Virus record (IMG/VR): IMGVR_UViG_3300038825_000970
Location: 1 to 22,911 of that record
Reading direction: 5' to 3' (one strand)
Source: a virus
DNA length: 22,911 nt
In this document: in pieces, positions 10,027-16,443 of the stretch
Layout of the letters: each line of letters starts with the position of its first letter
How positions within the stretch are numbered: position 1 is the first letter of the stretch
The notes under the pieces: model-generated
Seen by the model: only the letters and a program-made list of their open reading frames with translations
Databases searched by the model: none
What the model was told of the DNA's origin: nothing
Translations under genes and position numbers: made by a program

Positions 10027-10647
10027 ATGGCATTTCAGTCGGTCTGGTACTTTAGCGACCTGCCTGAAGAGATAGTCAGCATCATCGAGAAAGATCTGTC
10101 TAAAAGTTTTGGTGACAAGATGGCAGATTCAAAGCTTTATGGAGATGCGCTGAACAAAGAGAAGCGTGACTCGCAAAACGCATGGATCCCTACAACACAT
10201 TGGGTCAGCGGGTTTTTGTGGCATTACATCCAACGCGCAAACCGTGAAAACTTCCTATATGACCTGAGGTGTATCGACGGCGAATCGATTCAATACACTC
10301 GTTATGGAGAAGGGCAATTTTATGGATGGCACAACGACGCAGGGCTTGCCAATCAATACAAGCCGGTCTCTATTGGAAACCGCGTCGGAGGGCTTGGGCA
10401 AGACTTTTTGAATGAAAGCATTGAGATGGTCAGAAAGCTTTCGTTTGTGGTTCAGTTGTCTGACGCAGAGGATTATGAGGGCGGAAACCTGCAGCTGCTA
10501 GACGAGGCTGGTAAAGCGTATATTGCACCAAGAAAACGTGGCACTGTGATCTTGTTTGATTCAAGAACGCAACATCGCGTGCAGAAGGTCAAGAAAGGCG
10601 TCCGCAAATCGCTTGTGGGCTGGACTGTGGGACCGCGCTGGAAGTGA
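10027..10647 (+). CDS. 2OG-Fe(II) oxygenase, PKHD/PiuC-like hydroxylase
   Basis: 206 aa. The double-stranded beta-helix fold of 2-oxoglutarate/Fe(II) dioxygenases is indicated by the iron triad H102-x-D104 ('YGWHNDAG') and H183 ('TQHRVQKV'), with R193 ('GVRKSLVGW') as the likely 2-oxoglutarate ligand. The segments 'LSFVVQLSDAEDYEGGNLQL' and 'PRKRGTVILFDSR' are typical of this group. Such enzymes hydroxylate protein side chains or small molecules using O2. Many marine cyanophages carry them and the substrate is unknown. It directly follows the fibre/adhesin genes and overlaps the next oxygenase-like gene, so modification of a virion protein is one possibility (inference). Confidence 0.92.
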   Translation: MAFQSVWYFSDLPEEIVSIIEKDLSKSFGDKMADSKLYGDALNKEKRDSQNAWIPTTHWVSGFLWHYIQRANRENFLYDLRCIDGESIQYTRYGEGQFYGWHNDAGLANQYKPVSIGNRVGGLGQDFLNESIEMVRKLSFVVQLSDAEDYEGGNLQLLDEAGKAYIAPRKRGTVILFDSRTQHRVQKVKKGVRKSLVGWTVGPRWK

Positions 10648-10649
10648 AC

Positions 10650-11279
10650 ATGCAGAAACTACCGGCATCAACACAAAACCGGAACTTTGAAAGAGACGGC
10701 TTTTTGTTAGCAAGAGGGCTCTGGGACCCAGCGGAGCTAAAGGATTCGATCCCTGAAAAATCAGGCCAATACAACTACGGGGACGGGAAGTCTAAAAACT
10801 TCACTTTCAACCCTGAAGAGAACCAAGTCAACGGTTCGGCGTCACGCTATTGGCACCCCAAATACCGCCAGATCCACACCGGAATCAGGCAGGAGATTGA
10901 GAAGCGCATCGGGCGCAAACTTTTCAACACTTACTACTACGACCGCTTTTATTTTCCAGGTCAAGAACTTGCAAAGCATGTAGACCGTGATGCGTGTGAA
11001 ATATCAGTCACTGTTCATGTCAGCACTAATTTGAAAGGGGCTGATGCTGATTGGCCGATTTGCATTGAATCGCCTGACGGGCGAGAGCATAAGGTCTCAC
11101 TCAAGCCTGGGGATGGCTTGATTTACAAGGGTTGCCATCAAAATCACTGGCGCGAAAAAATGCCAGGGCCAACGGGCTGGCGTGCCTTTGGGCGTCGTCT
11201 CTATTATCACCAGATCTTTTTTCACTATTGCTTACAAGACGGCTACCGGGCACATTGCGCCTGGGATCGCGCCCGATAG
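10650..11279 (+). CDS. Second 2OG-Fe(II) oxygenase-like protein
   Basis: 209 aa from ATG 10650; a GTG at 10644 overlapping the previous stop (GTGA) would add two residues. With the GTG numbering, H112-x-D114 ('KHVDRDACEISVTVHVS') gives the first two iron ligands and H168 ('GCHQNHWREKMPG') the third; 'KPGDGLIYKG' precedes it as in prolyl-hydroxylase-like folds. The C-terminus 'LYYHQIFFHYCLQDG' then 'RAHCAWDRA' is a style I associate with T4-like cyanophage oxygenases. The N-terminus 'FERDGFLLARGLWDP' resembles the entry of phytanoyl-hydroxylase-like proteins. Product and substrate unknown. Likely co-transcribed with the first oxygenase. Confidence 0.85.
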   Translation: MQKLPASTQNRNFERDGFLLARGLWDPAELKDSIPEKSGQYNYGDGKSKNFTFNPEENQVNGSASRYWHPKYRQIHTGIRQEIEKRIGRKLFNTYYYDRFYFPGQELAKHVDRDACEISVTVHVSTNLKGADADWPICIESPDGREHKVSLKPGDGLIYKGCHQNHWREKMPGPTGWRAFGRRLYYHQIFFHYCLQDGYRAHCAWDRAR

Positions 11280-12301: not shown

Positions 12302-12602
12302 CGTTGGCGGTTGGATCCTCGTCATGAGCTTCTGGTCCGAAACCTTCCGCCTTGATCCGTTCAGCAAAGTTCGTTTCTGGCGCGGGTGCTTCTGGTTCCT
12401 GGTCAAACGACGCTAGCCATTCGCGCAGATTGTCACCAGTTGGTGTGCCTTTCGGCCATTTCACAAATTTGAGAATAGCCTTGTGGTCGGTGAACAGCCT
12501 TGCTGTCTTGCCAGACATTACGGTGTAAACAATGGGCGGGCCCTCTCGTCTGCGGTTGCGCTCAATCCAGAGCTGACCTGCTGTAAACCGTTCTGATTTC
12601 AT
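12285..12602 (-). CDS. Hypothetical protein, divergent from the Pro-rich gene
   Basis: 105 aa from ATG at 12602-12600. The frame stays open 34 codons further upstream, but those lie opposite the divergent gene and look like a shadow. Visible parts: 'AGQLWIERNRRREGPPIVYT', 'TDHKAILKFVKWPKGTPTGD', an acidic Pro/Ala-rich linker, then 'FAERIKAEGFGPEAHDEDPT'. No signal peptide or membrane segment. It could bind nucleic acid through the basic first half. The start codon shares bases with the divergent start at 12601. I do not recognise the family. Confidence 0.6.
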   Translation of the reverse strand: MKSERFTAGQLWIERNRRREGPPIVYTVMSGKTARLFTDHKAILKFVKWPKGTPTGDNLREWLASFDQEPEAPAPETNFAERIKAEGFGPEAHDEDPTANVKMVI

Positions 12603-13359
12603 GCCAGAGATTCCTGAGATTGGGGTGCAGTCTGTATCCGTTCCAGAGATTCCTGCATGGCGTTCAATGCCACCACAGAGTATTCCAAATGCCCCGCCCA
12701 TCACGCTTCAGCTTGGCTTTCCAGTCGCGGATATTCCGGGCTGCGTGGAGACTCGAAACACGCAAGCCGGAAATGAAGACGCTTACACCGATGACCCACG
12801 CGGCAACTTGGTTGTCTGTGATGGCACGATGCCTTCATATAAGCCGCTGGATTTTACGCCCGGCACTCTGACGTATGAAAGAGCAAAACCGCCAGCGATT
12901 GATCCAGACGTAAAAAAACCGGCTGGTGCATCAAACCAACCGGACAGTGTCTCTTCCCCGCCGAGTCCCGATCTCGACGTTTCAAACGTAGCCACGGAGT
13001 TGCCATGTCCTCCACCTGACGCAATTCCTTTAGGTGCGAAGAACAAAGCGCAAACTGCCGTCATTATTGGTTACGAAAGGATCAATGGCAAATGTGAGGC
13101 GATCTATGAGCCGCTGGACGTACCAACGATCGTCGGCAATTATCTGCCTGGTGCACCTGTTGTGGCAACGACGGCCACGATTGCCGCAGTGGCGACTACG
13201 GCGGCCATCTTCGCAAAACCGTTAGGCGACTTTCTGCTTAAAGCCGTCAAGCCAACGGTCAAAAAAGCAATTAAGAAGATCAAGGAGAAGTTGGGGCGGA
13301 AGGTTGCTGTTGAGTCTGCTTGGCAGCGCCGGAAGAATCAGCGGGCTTTGCGTAAGTGA
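12601..13359 (+). CDS. Pro-rich membrane protein with basic tail, cyanophage structural type
   Basis: 252 aa. Residues 1-140 are Pro-rich, with 'GCVETRNTQAGNEDAYTDDP', 'GNLVVCDGTMPSYKPLDFTP' and five Cys in all. Residues about 165-185 continue in beta style, residues 186-206 form a hydrophobic Ala/Thr segment ('VVATTATIAAVATTAAIFA'), and residues 214-252 are very basic ('KKAIKKIKEKLGRK', 'QRRKNQRALRK'). I associate this build with virion-structural-annotated proteins of T4-like cyanophages. The topology suggests Cys/Pro-rich part on one membrane face and a DNA- or lipid-binding tail on the other. No Shine-Dalgarno is seen at 12601. Its last 80 bases overlap the convergent gene. Confidence 0.75.
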   Translation: MPEIPEIGVQSVSVPEIPAWRSMPPQSIPNAPPITLQLGFPVADIPGCVETRNTQAGNEDAYTDDPRGNLVVCDGTMPSYKPLDFTPGTLTYERAKPPAIDPDVKKPAGASNQPDSVSSPPSPDLDVSNVATELPCPPPDAIPLGAKNKAQTAVIIGYERINGKCEAIYEPLDVPTIVGNYLPGAPVVATTATIAAVATTAAIFAKPLGDFLLKAVKPTVKKAIKKIKEKLGRKVAVESAWQRRKNQRALRK

Positions 13360-14011
13360 TGGAATGGATGTGGGGCGGGGTTACGCCGGGCGGATTGGTT
13401 AGGACAACGTCAGCACAGATTTTTGCGTAAGGCGAGTCAGGATGGAACATGATGCCTTTTTGCATTAGCTCGGCACAGTTCTTGAGTCTTGCAAGCTCGT
13501 AGTTGAGGCGTTTATCTGCAAGGGCAGCGTCTAAAAGTGCCACTTGTTTTTCGGCTGCTTTTTGACACGAACGGATGTGACTGCGATCTAGCGGGACTGA
13601 GATCGTGGCAGTGATTCCGCCATTGATTGAGAAATTTGTTTTTTGACCTGTGCGAACTGGTTTATAGAAAAGGACATTGCCCGGATTATCGGGCCTGCCA
13701 TCTGGGACGGGATTACCTTCCGGATCAAACGCGCCAACGAGATCGAGAGTGTCATAAACCGGCTCGCCATAATGCGATTCATATGGAGTCGCCCAGCTTG
13801 TAGTTGAGCTGACGAAGGGGTTGATGTTGAGCGTTGCGCCTTGGCAACTAATCCCCCCGCCGTATGTGTTTGTAAATTGGCGGCTTGGCACGACTTGCAC
13901 AGCCTGATTCGTCACACTTCCGGAGCTGTTGGCGACTGGTGCAGCGGTGCTTGAGACCTGTGCCTGTGCTGGGGCAGAAAGCAGCAAAAGCGTTGCAATG
14001 GCTCGCTTCAT
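13280..14011 (-). CDS. Exported protein A of the leftward operon
   Basis: 243 aa with a clean Sec signal: 'MKRAIATLLLLSAPAQA' then 'QVSS'. The mature part has a Ser/Thr/Val-rich region, 'NTYGGGISCQGATLNINPFV', 'NFSINGGITATISVPLDRSH' and a helix 'QVALLDAALADKRLNYELAR'. Four Cys (two close to 'SCQKAAEKQ' and 'LKNCAELM') could form periplasmic disulfides. The C-terminus is Pro/Gln-rich. It is last in the operon, joined to the upstream gene by ATGA. Secretion to the periplasm or outer surface is supported; function is unknown. Its signal peptide closely resembles that of the 163-aa protein two genes upstream. Confidence 0.78.
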   Translation of the reverse strand: MKRAIATLLLLSAPAQAQVSSTAAPVANSSGSVTNQAVQVVPSRQFTNTYGGGISCQGATLNINPFVSSTTSWATPYESHYGEPVYDTLDLVGAFDPEGNPVPDGRPDNPGNVLFYKPVRTGQKTNFSINGGITATISVPLDRSHIRSCQKAAEKQVALLDAALADKRLNYELARLKNCAELMQKGIMFHPDSPYAKICADVVLTNPPGVTPPHIHSITYAKPADSSGAAKQTQQQPSAPTSP

Positions 14012-14457
14012 TGGGTGAAGGTGCTTGTCGTCTCTGTCAAAGATTCAATGTCAGTTTCCCTGTTGATCAGGGTGTGATTAACAAGGCCAGGGCCTTGAAG
14101 CGTCTCGACAAATTGAAAGCTAGCGCCCTGATTCACGATGTTCCATGCTGGCTTGTCAGAAGGGTCAAGGCCAACCCAGCGGCTAGAAATGCCGTTGAGC
14201 GTGTTGGTTGTTGTGGTCAGAGCGCGTGGGGAGATCTCGCCATTTGCTGGCGCGATGTTTGTGCCGGAAACGCTCAGCTCATAGCCTGTGCGGTACTCAT
14301 AGGAGTTAATAACTTCATTTACCTTGGTCTTGGTTGTTGTCTTGCTAGACAAAACCCCCTGCTGAAAGTTCGGAACAACCGGAATCGATTTAGCCTCTGG
14401 AGCAGCAAGCGCAACAACGCAGAGAGCGCCCCAGGCGAGCCAAAGACCTGTCCACAT
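14008..14457 (-). CDS. Exported or membrane-anchored protein B of the leftward operon
   Basis: 149 aa from ATG 14457; a GTG at 14460 would add one residue. A hydrophobic start 'MWTGLWLAWGALCVVALAAP' acts as signal or anchor; cleavage after 'APEA' is possible. The mature chain is beta-rich and Thr/Asn-rich: 'VLSSKTTTKTKVNEVINSYE', 'YELSVSGTNIAP', 'ALTTTTNTLNGIS', 'TDIESLTETTSTFTQ'. Its ATG overlaps the upstream TGA (TGATG) and its TGA overlaps the downstream ATG (ATGA). No enzyme motif is visible. A shared extracellular structure with its operon partners is inference. Confidence 0.75.
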   Translation of the reverse strand: MWTGLWLAWGALCVVALAAPEAKSIPVVPNFQQGVLSSKTTTKTKVNEVINSYEYRTGYELSVSGTNIAPANGEISPRALTTTTNTLNGISSRWVGLDPSDKPAWNIVNQGASFQFVETLQGPGLVNHTLINRETDIESLTETTSTFTQ

Positions 14458-14948
14458 CACTTAATCGTCAACTCTTGGATGACTTGTCCGATTGCCTGAG
14501 TACCAGCACCACCAGCCGTGATCGTGAGTGCTCCGTCTGTGGCGATTGTGCCTCCAAGGCTGCCAGCCACACCACCTGAGGTTGTAGTGGTCGAACCAAG
14601 CATTGGGAGTGAGCCAACTACTCCGGAGGTGACGGTGGTTGCTGTTGGGGTTGCGTCTCCCTCAATAAATGATTCTGTAAGGCTAAAAGCGTCACCAGCA
14701 GTAGTGACGCTGTAATCGGCAGGAGTGTAACCAACAGCGGAACCGGCAGTAAGGGTGCCAAGACCACCAGCAGTGTCCAGAGTGACGTTATTGCCAGATA
14801 TTGAATACGTTGACGGAATCCGCGCTGCGACTGATCCGGCTCCATCGACAGACAGTGAAACGCTGGACTGGATTCTATGGGTGATGTCAGCCTGAGCTGG
14901 TAAAGCGGCTGTGATGGTGATGCCCAATACCAAAAGTGCGCGTTTCAT
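14457..14948 (-). CDS. Exported protein C of the leftward operon
   Basis: 163 aa. Signal peptide 'MKRALLVLGITITAALPAQA' with cleavage before 'DITHRIQSSVSLSVDGAGSV'. The rest is Gly/Thr/Ser/Ala-rich beta sequence with very few charged residues ('TLDTAGGLGTLTAGSAVGYT', 'TTTTSGGVAGSLGGTIATDG', 'GAGTQAIGQVIQELTIK'), the composition of a fibrous or repeat-built extracellular protein. The sole His/Arg cluster sits just after the cleavage site. Overlaps its upstream neighbour by ATGA. No family recognised with confidence; a resemblance in style to secreted fibre subunits was noted but not claimed. Confidence 0.77.
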   Translation of the reverse strand: MKRALLVLGITITAALPAQADITHRIQSSVSLSVDGAGSVAARIPSTYSISGNNVTLDTAGGLGTLTAGSAVGYTPADYSVTTAGDAFSLTESFIEGDATPTATTVTSGVVGSLPMLGSTTTTSGGVAGSLGGTIATDGALTITAGGAGTQAIGQVIQELTIK

Positions 14949-15214
14949 TTTGGCTTGGAGGTGGATGGTTCTTCCTTAATTGTAGGCTCCTCTTTTTTCT
15001 TTCTATTGTTGCCGACCGCTAATCCGAAGGATGCTGCCGTGCCAGAGAGGATTGAGGCTGGATAGGTGGGATCGAGCGATTGCTTAAAGACGCCAAGGTA
15101 GTTGGCGGTCAGGATTGCCATTGCCCAGGCAAGCAAAACAACCTTAATTACATCGCCTAGCCGCGAGTTTCCGTCATCCTGTTCTTGGCCTTGCGCTTCC
15201 TTGGTTTCTGCCAT
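14945..15214 (-). CDS. Holin-like small membrane protein
   Basis: 89 aa, first in the leftward operon. Acidic N-terminus (1-20), membrane segment about 23-42 ('IKVVLLAWAMAILTANYLG'), a short loop with 'SLDPTYPA', a second hydrophobic segment about 53-68, then a charged Lys/Glu/Pro tail. Two membrane segments, small size and charged C-terminus fit class II holins, and the C39-like peptidase lies 0.7 kb away on the other strand. There is no lysis-specific motif, so a membrane scaffold for the exported operon partners is an alternative. The divergent gene starts 26 bases away. Confidence 0.6.
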   Translation of the reverse strand: MAETKEAQGQEQDDGNSRLGDVIKVVLLAWAMAILTANYLGVFKQSLDPTYPASILSGTAASFGLAVGNNRKKKEEPTIKEEPSTSKPK

Positions 15215-15240
15215 GATGAAGTGAGTGCTTGGGGCGGGTC

Positions 15241-15492
15241 ATGGTTGAAGTCTGGGCCGCCGTTGCTGGCGCGTCAATAACAGTCGCTGGCTTGGGTGTT
15301 TCAGGCATTAACCGTCAAACACGCTCTGGACAAGACTCGTTAATTCGTCTGACGACTGCTGTAGATAACTTGTCCAGCAGGCTCGACATCCTGCATCAAG
15401 ACATCAAGAGTAAGGATGCTGAAGTCTTTGGTCGTTTGAGCACACTGGAGCGTTCAGTGGCGAGGCTGGAAGGTCATAGCGATAGGCACTAA
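15241..15492 (+). CDS. Membrane-anchored coiled-coil protein
   Basis: 83 aa from ATG 15241; a TTG at 15229 in frame is possible. Residues 2-22 ('VEVWAAVAGASITVAGLGVS') form one membrane segment. Residues 33-79 form an amphipathic helix with heptad-like spacing of Leu/Ile ('LIRLTTAVDNLSSRLDILHQ', 'VFGRLSTLERSVARLEGH'). This is the layout of small phage inner-membrane proteins such as i-spanins or anchor proteins for lysis. A tail-assembly or virion role cannot be excluded. It starts the rightward gene set that leads to the peptidase. Confidence 0.72.
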   Translation: MVEVWAAVAGASITVAGLGVSGINRQTRSGQDSLIRLTTAVDNLSSRLDILHQDIKSKDAEVFGRLSTLERSVARLEGHSDRH

Positions 15493-15519: not shown

Positions 15520-15693
15520 ATGCTTTTGATTCTCAAGCCGATCTTGATGACCGCGTGGAAATCAAGAGCGTTTAAGGAGTTGATTATGGCGATGCTGGAG
15601 AAGATTGTTGCCAGGACGGATAACGATTTGGACGACTTGGCTGTGAAGCATGTCCGTGAAATGCTGTTGCCTGACACAAGAGTTGAAAAATAG
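15520..15693 (+). CDS. Small helical protein, cyanophage type
   Basis: 57 aa, ATG 15520 to TAG 15691-15693, with the next start GTG directly following. The N-terminal 'MLLILKPILMTAWKSRAFKE' is a hydrophobic/basic amphipathic helix likely to lie on or in the membrane; 'LIMAMLEKIVARTDNDLDDL' and 'VKHVREMLLP' continue as helix. I recall near-identical small proteins in cyanophage genomes, role unknown. It is too short for common length cut-offs but fills the 27-201 bases between neighbours neatly. Confidence 0.75.
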   Translation: MLLILKPILMTAWKSRAFKELIMAMLEKIVARTDNDLDDLAVKHVREMLLPDTRVEK

Positions 15694-16443
15694 GTGCATT
15701 CCGGCATTATCCGGCTGTCCCTGCTGTTGTTAGTCATGGGGCTCGCCCTGCTTCCGTTCTTTCGTTTTTTCCGTGGTACGCCCCATCAGTTGGCTGCAAT
15801 TAAGCAGCTTGAGGAGTCAATGCCGCAGGAATTATTGGAGGAGGACGAAGCTGATTGGTTTCAAGCCTGGAAAGAGAGTGGCTATGACCAGCAGATCTAC
15901 ATGCCCTACTTCAGGCAGCTCGACAACAAAACAGGAACCGGCTACCGCGAGTGCTTTAGTTCAGCGGCAGCCATGGTGGCGGCGTATTACAAGAAAGTTC
16001 GGACAGATGATGAGTACAACAAGATCCGCGCCAAATACGGAGACACCACGTCAGTAGAGGCTCAGTTAGCAGCGTTGCGGAGTTTGGGCTTAGAAGCTGA
16101 GTTCAGGAAGGACGGTGACGCTGACATGGTGGAGCTAGAGATTGAGAATGGCAGGCCAGTGTTGGTTGGCTGGTTGCACGCCGGAAACATGCTTCTAGGC
16201 GAACCACCCATGTGCAATGGCATGGGTTGTGGTCATTGGAGCGTTATCAGCGGTTATGCGGGTAAAAACAGCAACGATCCAGAGTGGATCATGCAAGACC
16301 CTCGCGGCTATCCCGAAATGGAGAAGGGTGGTCACAGCAACCCGCACCTGGGACGTAATGCTCGGATTAGGCAGGCTGCTTTCTACCAGCGGTGGCAGGT
16401 TGAAGGCCCAAGAACAGGGTGGGTGATTCTTGTCAATGAGTGA
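15694..16443 (+). CDS. C39-like cysteine peptidase with N-terminal anchor
   Basis: 249 aa from GTG 15694, immediately after the previous TAG; ATG 15736 would remove 14 residues and part of the anchor. Residues 4-26 are hydrophobic ('IIRLSLLLLVMGLALLPFF') and followed by Arg-rich turn, an uncleaved-anchor or signal-arrest-release pattern. The papain-like catalytic set is clear: C87 ('GYRECFSSAAAMVAAYY'), H181 ('GMGCGHWSVISGY') and D202 ('MQDPRGYPEM'), with 'FRQLDN' before the Cys as in Peptidase_C39_2. Family members cleave peptides, some in cell walls. In this context (holin-like, coiled-coil anchor) an endolysin or virion-protein protease role is most likely; export is inferred. Confidence 0.85.
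   Translation: MHSGIIRLSLLLLVMGLALLPFFRFFRGTPHQLAAIKQLEESMPQELLEEDEADWFQAWKESGYDQQIYMPYFRQLDNKTGTGYRECFSSAAAMVAAYYKKVRTDDEYNKIRAKYGDTTSVEAQLAALRSLGLEAEFRKDGDADMVELEIENGRPVLVGWLHAGNMLLGEPPMCNGMGCGHWSVISGYAGKNSNDPEWIMQDPRGYPEMEKGGHSNPHLGRNARIRQAAFYQRWQVEGPRTGWVILVNE

Follow-up and report, generated by a model that had tools for sequence, protein, structure and literature searches.

The gene at positions 15694 to 16443 of the window, by which we mean the whole 22,911-nucleotide stretch of viral DNA analyzed here, very probably encodes a peptidoglycan endopeptidase endolysin of the C39/papain-like type, derived from two-domain forms and equipped with a probable signal anchor (probability about 0.85). 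At the end of infection, such an enzyme would cut peptide bonds in the peptidoglycan of the host. The enzyme class is ordinary for cyanophages, while the configuration is unusual and derived. Its new part is specific to one clade, in which a single-domain architecture, a hydrophobic N-terminus, and a loop with two cysteines fall on one fully supported branch. The window itself is best read as a siphovirus-like phage of marine picocyanobacteria.

The gene and its catalytic parts are located as follows.
15694 to 16443, + strand: gene of the putative anchored C39-like endolysin, 249 aa, GTG start
15886 to 16440, + strand: C39_2/papain-like catalytic domain, residues ~65-249 (Pfam PF13529 and PF12385; Foldseek to 6mpz, 3erv, and 3k8u)
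15952 to 15954, + strand: codon of catalytic Cys87, invariant in alignments
16234 to 16236, + strand: codon of catalytic His181, invariant in alignments
16297 to 16299, + strand: codon of catalytic Asp202, invariant in alignments

The GTG start codon lies directly 3' of the TAG stop of the upstream gene, and the coordinates, frame, and length in the initial annotation were correct. That annotation also proposed a papain-like, C39-related peptidase with a C87/H181/D202 triad, and this assignment is borne out by a Pfam match above the cut-off, the conserved triad, and a C39 fold match. Peptidase_C39_2 (PF13529) is matched at 1.1e-6 and 29.7 bits against a curated cut-off of 24. The C70 papain-like profile (PF12385) also scores above its curated cut-off; assignment to C70/AvrRpt2 was dropped because it reflects the same papain-like similarity at a lower score. 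The 'endolysin' family phrog_10051 is matched at 4.4e-61 over residues 13-248. Pfam finds C39_2/C70 as the single domain of the protein, with no ABC-transporter membrane or nucleotide-binding domain, and NCBIfam has no model for the 249-aa protein. The three triad residues stand exactly at the proposed positions and, like Q75 and D77, are invariant in alignments of both 16 and 56 sequences, the larger of which reaches down to about 32% identity. A looser motif scan picked up 227 loci, all with the Cys and GH[W/M] and 224 with a loose Asp-Pro motif; this is a consistency check only, since the pattern itself demanded Cys or Ser plus [GS]H[WM], and 24 other homologous loci fell outside it.

Sequence-only searches of the PDB returned no meaningful relative, so a fold search was needed. 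The AlphaFold2 model of the 249-aa protein has a mean pLDDT of 82.8 and a helix at residues 2-24. Its first Foldseek matches are the C39 peptidases 6mpz (E 2.2e-6, probability 1.00), 3erv, and 3k8u, followed by the pseudomurein endoisopeptidase PeiR (8z4h) and staphopains. Searched against viral models, the fold resembles cyanophage entries named 'lysozyme/endolysin' and, to a lesser degree, endolysins from Gordonia and Mycobacterium phages.

The initial annotation regarded a free C39 domain as unusual for a phage. This view does not survive, as cyanophages have a family of endolysins whose peptidase part is this domain, and C39_2 figures among the domains listed for endolysins (PMC5017753; PMC8223927). 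A tblastn search of the phage collection found the domain in 101 records, every one of which is titled Synechococcus phage or cyanophage. Its fusion partner is Glucosaminidase in S-CBS1, S-EIV1, S-CRES2, PSS2 (when read from an upstream start), and IMG/VR loci, with the order C39 then glucosaminidase in L138 and L150. The partner is a GH24 lysozyme domain in S-CBS2, L213, and L216, and the region after C39 in S-N03 is GH19-like in sequence. These glycosidase fusions all come from relatives rather than from the anchored clade, and the GenBank names 'lysozyme' and 'endolysin' given to relatives are annotation rather than experiment. No fusion of the domain to an ABC transporter was found among the relatives examined. 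Together with phrog_10051 and the position of the gene in a lysis cassette, the glycosidase fusions support the earlier guess that the enzyme cuts cross-link peptides, in the form of an endolysin. Two chromosomal picocyanobacterial proteins of 618-660 aa (L290:3528-5510 and L292:3654-5510) have strongly hydrophobic segments at their N-termini; the one in L290 continues with GH24 and C39 domains and is another, probably membrane-attached, C39 enzyme.

Between the N-terminal segment and the catalytic domain lies a second conserved element.
15757 to 15873, + strand: 'HQ' module, residues ~22-60, FFxxxRGTPHQLAAIxxLE, with HMM matches in other cyanophage endolysins

This N-terminal module of about 45 residues is common to endolysins with other catalytic domains. 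An HMM built without these proteins matches S-CBS3 gp23 (1.1e-15), KBS-S-2A gp8 (2.9e-18), and a protein of S-CREM2 (8.4e-11), of which the first is GH24+M15 and the other two are GH19-like; gp23 and gp8 have no C39. Because it accompanies different wall hydrolases, the module is probably a targeting or regulatory part. It may hold the enzyme to the wall or regulate it; wall binding is a guess. In codons 25-43 (15766-15822), synonymous variation falls to ~0.2 from the 0.4-0.5 seen across most of the gene, and codons CGT27, ACG29, GCT34, and CTT39 are invariant in 81 homologues, possibly reflecting an overlapping signal in 15766-15822.

The genes beside the C39 gene form a putative lysis cassette.
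15520 to 15693, + strand: 57-aa protein (phrog_2738), putative lysis cassette, immediately preceding C39 in each of the 80 clade A and 15 clade B loci
15229 to 15492, + strand: holin-like small membrane protein with a coiled coil (phrog_26178), homologues in S-CBS3 (gp20), S-CBS1, and KBS-S-2A
14945 to 15214, - strand: small membrane protein DUF6450/phrog_721 with hydrophobic segments (Pfam DUF6450, 1.2e-12), alternative holin candidate

The phrog_2738 protein occurs in 68 cyanophage records. The holin-like protein has an N-terminal hydrophobic segment and is 52.6% identical to S-CBS3 gp20; its homologues in S-CBS3, S-CBS1, and KBS-S-2A lie upstream of the endolysins of those phages. The holin-like gene is present in at least 25 of 80 clade A loci, and the DUF6450/phrog_721 gene is conserved beside C39 in 77 of 80. 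S-CBS3 has the order tail genes, fibre, gp20, two small genes, and endolysin gp23 ('lysozyme'), and the cassettes of S-CBS1 and KBS-S-2A resemble it. In the window, a tail gene with relatives in S-CBS1/S-CBS3 is followed, further downstream, by the gp20 homologue, the 57-aa gene, and the C39 gene. By this synteny, the C39 gene occupies the endolysin slot. Chromosomal relatives lie nearly all in Synechococcus, Cyanobium, and Vulcanococcus, one of them beside a capsid-like gene, and they support a picocyanobacterial host. Elsewhere in the window, at 10027-11279, a pair of neighboring genes resembles 2OG-Fe(II) oxygenases, only weakly in the case of the second, and lies downstream of a Gly-rich fibre-like protein.

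Pfam scans of selected ORFs on two clade A contigs (44.6 and 41.9 kb) gave, among the families listed, no wall hydrolase other than C39_2 and one NlpC/P60, with three weak families left undisplayed. The NlpC/P60 protein is probably a tail protein, because a JAB domain also occurs once. Ten long contigs, from clades A and B among others, had no match to PF01832 or PF00959, and 7 of these 10 had none to SLT; the long relatives are linear contigs that may be incomplete. A GH19 search of the relatives carries no weight, since its controls gave no match. Within the ORFs scanned, the C39 enzyme is the only endolysin candidate detected in the two 42-45 kb relatives.

The hydrophobic start of the protein is one feature that separates the clade from other cyanophage endolysins of this family.
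15703 to 15771, + strand: N-terminal hydrophobic segment, residues 4-26 (core 4-22, Pro21 conserved), from hydropathy, homologues, and the model helix
15736 to 15738, + strand: possible internal start codon Met15, weak evidence (ATG/GTG/TTG in 81/81)

The best 19-residue Kyte-Doolittle mean is 2.40 (residues 4-22), a value that none of 20,000 shuffles of the protein reached within the first 40 residues. The segment is kept, with scores of 1.97-2.73, in all 81 close homologues (the window plus 80 IMG/VR loci, about 88-95% identical), so that the hydrophobic N-terminus described initially is genuine. Of the arginines said to follow it, R27 is invariant, whereas R24 is replaced by Gln or Glu in 77 of 81. 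The helix probably routes the enzyme through Sec as an N-in/C-out signal anchor, in which case the catalytic domain would face the periplasm. Residues 27-60 after the segment are acidic (3 K/R, 8 D/E), which fits this orientation weakly.

The best-surviving alternative, possible but unlikely, is a soluble, holin-dependent endolysin that starts at codon 15, or at both starts, and whose hydrophobic remnant is the first HQ helix. In its favor, all 81 homologues have a start codon at position 15, two loci (L033 and L035) have no nearby start codon before residue 12, and the hydrophobic start of a sister clade (L117-L131, 61-65% identical) is only about 14 residues long. All other relatives, namely groups C, D, and E and the cultured cyanophages, have no hydrophobic N-terminus. 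However, position 1 or 2 is occupied by a start codon in most close homologues, and the control codon 43 has a comparable M/V/L pattern in 75 of 81, which makes the codon-15 pattern weak evidence for a second start. Codons 3-14 also look translated and held hydrophobic, since codon position 2 varies least (entropy 0.59/0.28/0.63 at positions 1/2/3) and synonymous variation occurs at I5 (ATT/ATC) and Q7 (CAA/CAG). The anchor is a derived trait of one clade, given its absence from groups C, D, and E and from cultured phages; homologues lacking it, named initially as a ground for refutation, are thus found across the family at large but not within the close clade. In L033, L035, and L084, ~100 extra bases between the 57-aa gene and C39 replace the usual stop-start junction and hold an alternative-frame ORF resembling a small membrane protein.

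The initial annotation went further and described the segment as a possible signal-arrest-release (SAR) anchor. SAR segments are weakly hydrophobic and Gly/Ala-rich, usually with basic residues in front (PMC9239132, PMC12642591); that of Mu gp22 has Gly/Ala at 9/20 positions (PMC9239132). The window protein has the N-terminal membrane segment and lacks the other two features. Gly plus Ala make up 18% of its best segment and 12-35% in the relatives tested, as against 41% in P1 Lyz (from its record). No basic residue precedes residue 4 in the window protein, and residue 7, an Arg here and in a few others, is Gln in 70 of 81. The SAR label is therefore hard to maintain, and an ordinary signal anchor appears to describe the segment better. 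A strict SAR endolysin would be held inactive in the membrane by a metastable anchor until depolarisation by a pinholin freed it. This is improbable, even though a hydrophobic N-terminal helix is present, small membrane proteins are encoded nearby, and such lysins are common among phages of Gram-negative hosts (PMC8223927). Besides the composition of the segment and the absent or single basic residue, the anchor contains no Cys. Within the literature library searched, no paper joins C39 to a SAR endolysin, and none joins peptidase C39, endolysin, and Gram-negative.

The second clade-specific feature adjoins the catalytic histidine.
16186 to 16230, + strand: clade-specific loop NMLLGEPPMCNGMGC with Cys174 and Cys179, adjoining His181, from Cys counts across loci

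Among the loci scored, all 78 of clade A and all 12 of clade B carry both loop cysteines, whereas 131 of 132 others have neither; C174, C179, and C87 are the only conserved cysteines of clade A. A tree of 49 C39 domains places the anchored rows in a single group with 100/100 support, nested among glycosidase-fused rows. The anchor changes once in every bootstrap tree, whereas the glucosaminidase and GH24 labels each do so repeatedly. It was on a single branch that the glycosidase was lost and that the hydrophobic N-terminus and the C174/C179 loop were acquired; the three changes therefore count as one event, with no statistical proof of a link among them. The ancestor was a two-domain endolysin, glycosidase plus C39. 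A C174-C179 disulfide is plausible in an exported enzyme and would form in the oxidising periplasm. A disulfide here may simply stiffen the loop beside His181, or it may extend to C87. A bolder proposal, which we consider unlikely, is a redox-controlled tethered endolysin that is exported early, silenced by a disulfide from Cys87 to Cys179 or Cys174, and freed by thiol exchange at lysis. If true, a switch like that of P1 Lyz would have arisen independently in a C39 peptidase. Two clade A phage genes (L270 and L271, 87-92% identical) lie on contigs that were assigned to Sphingobacteriales and proteobacterium MAGs, probably through mis-binning of phage contigs.

Next to the cassette, three tandem exported proteins (phrog_848, 650, and 564) plus phrog_570 are encoded at 13280-14948 (- strand) and 12601-13359 (+ strand). 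They are candidates for outer-membrane disruption or exported structures. The initial annotation suggested that the peptidase might process one of the nearby exported proteins, and the operon does adjoin C39 in clades A and B. Co-occurrence nevertheless fails in both directions. The operon, whole or in part, is also found in MED4-184, NATL1A-7, and S-TIM5, with no C39 relative annotated or matched nearby, and C39 relatives of groups C, D, and E have none of these exported genes within the fetched flanks. Since the domain is moreover fused to wall glycosidases and not to transporters, a maturation protease for these proteins is very unlikely. A true C39 bacteriocin-processing enzyme, that is, a double-glycine leader peptidase, can be practically set aside: among PDB entries the fold is closest to the C39 domains of PCAT/ComA transporters, but identity to these structures is low (18%), and transporter domains are absent from the protein and from fusions among the relatives examined.

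Among known systems, PeiR (PDB 8z4h) shares the papain-like fold of the window enzyme (Foldseek E 9e-6) and, by its PDB title, cuts cell-wall cross-links; it acts on archaeal pseudomurein and is about 14% identical. PET-C39-2 uses the same Pfam domain, Peptidase_C39_2, as a lysin catalytic domain (PMC5017753). Within the data set of one survey, C39_2 occurred only in lysins of phages with Gram-positive hosts (PMC8223927), whereas here it belongs to cyanobacterial phages. Contrary to that survey, C39_2 lysins thus extend to phages whose hosts have a Gram-negative envelope.

The SAR endolysins P1 Lyz, Mu gp22, and N4 gp61 share with the window enzyme an N-terminal membrane segment and a host with a Gram-negative envelope. 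They are muramidases with Gly/Ala-rich, weakly hydrophobic anchors after basic residues, whereas the window enzyme is a peptidase whose predicted anchor is strongly hydrophobic. A precedent in architecture is ORF123 of the cyanophage PaV-LD, a lysis endopeptidase that is encoded beside a holin and whose N-terminal TM segment is required for its lytic effect (PMC9096620). ORF123 is an M23 zinc metallopeptidase, unlike the cysteine peptidase of the window.

The nearest relatives are the PHROG 10051 endolysins of the cyanophages S-CBP2, S-CBS1, S-EIV1, S-CBS2, and S-N03. They have the same C39-like domain and invariant residues, the HQ module in most cases, and, in S-CBS1-like genomes, the same endolysin position. 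The others in this family are either glycosidase-fused or stand-alone without an anchor, and only the clade of the window combines the hydrophobic N-terminus with the two-Cys loop. Lysis by picocyanobacterial phages is poorly tested, and this clade offers a compact system of one peptidase, a probable anchor, and small membrane proteins. The family as a whole provides a natural comparison, in which the same catalytic domain occurs with and without the anchor, the glycosidase partner, and the cysteine loop.
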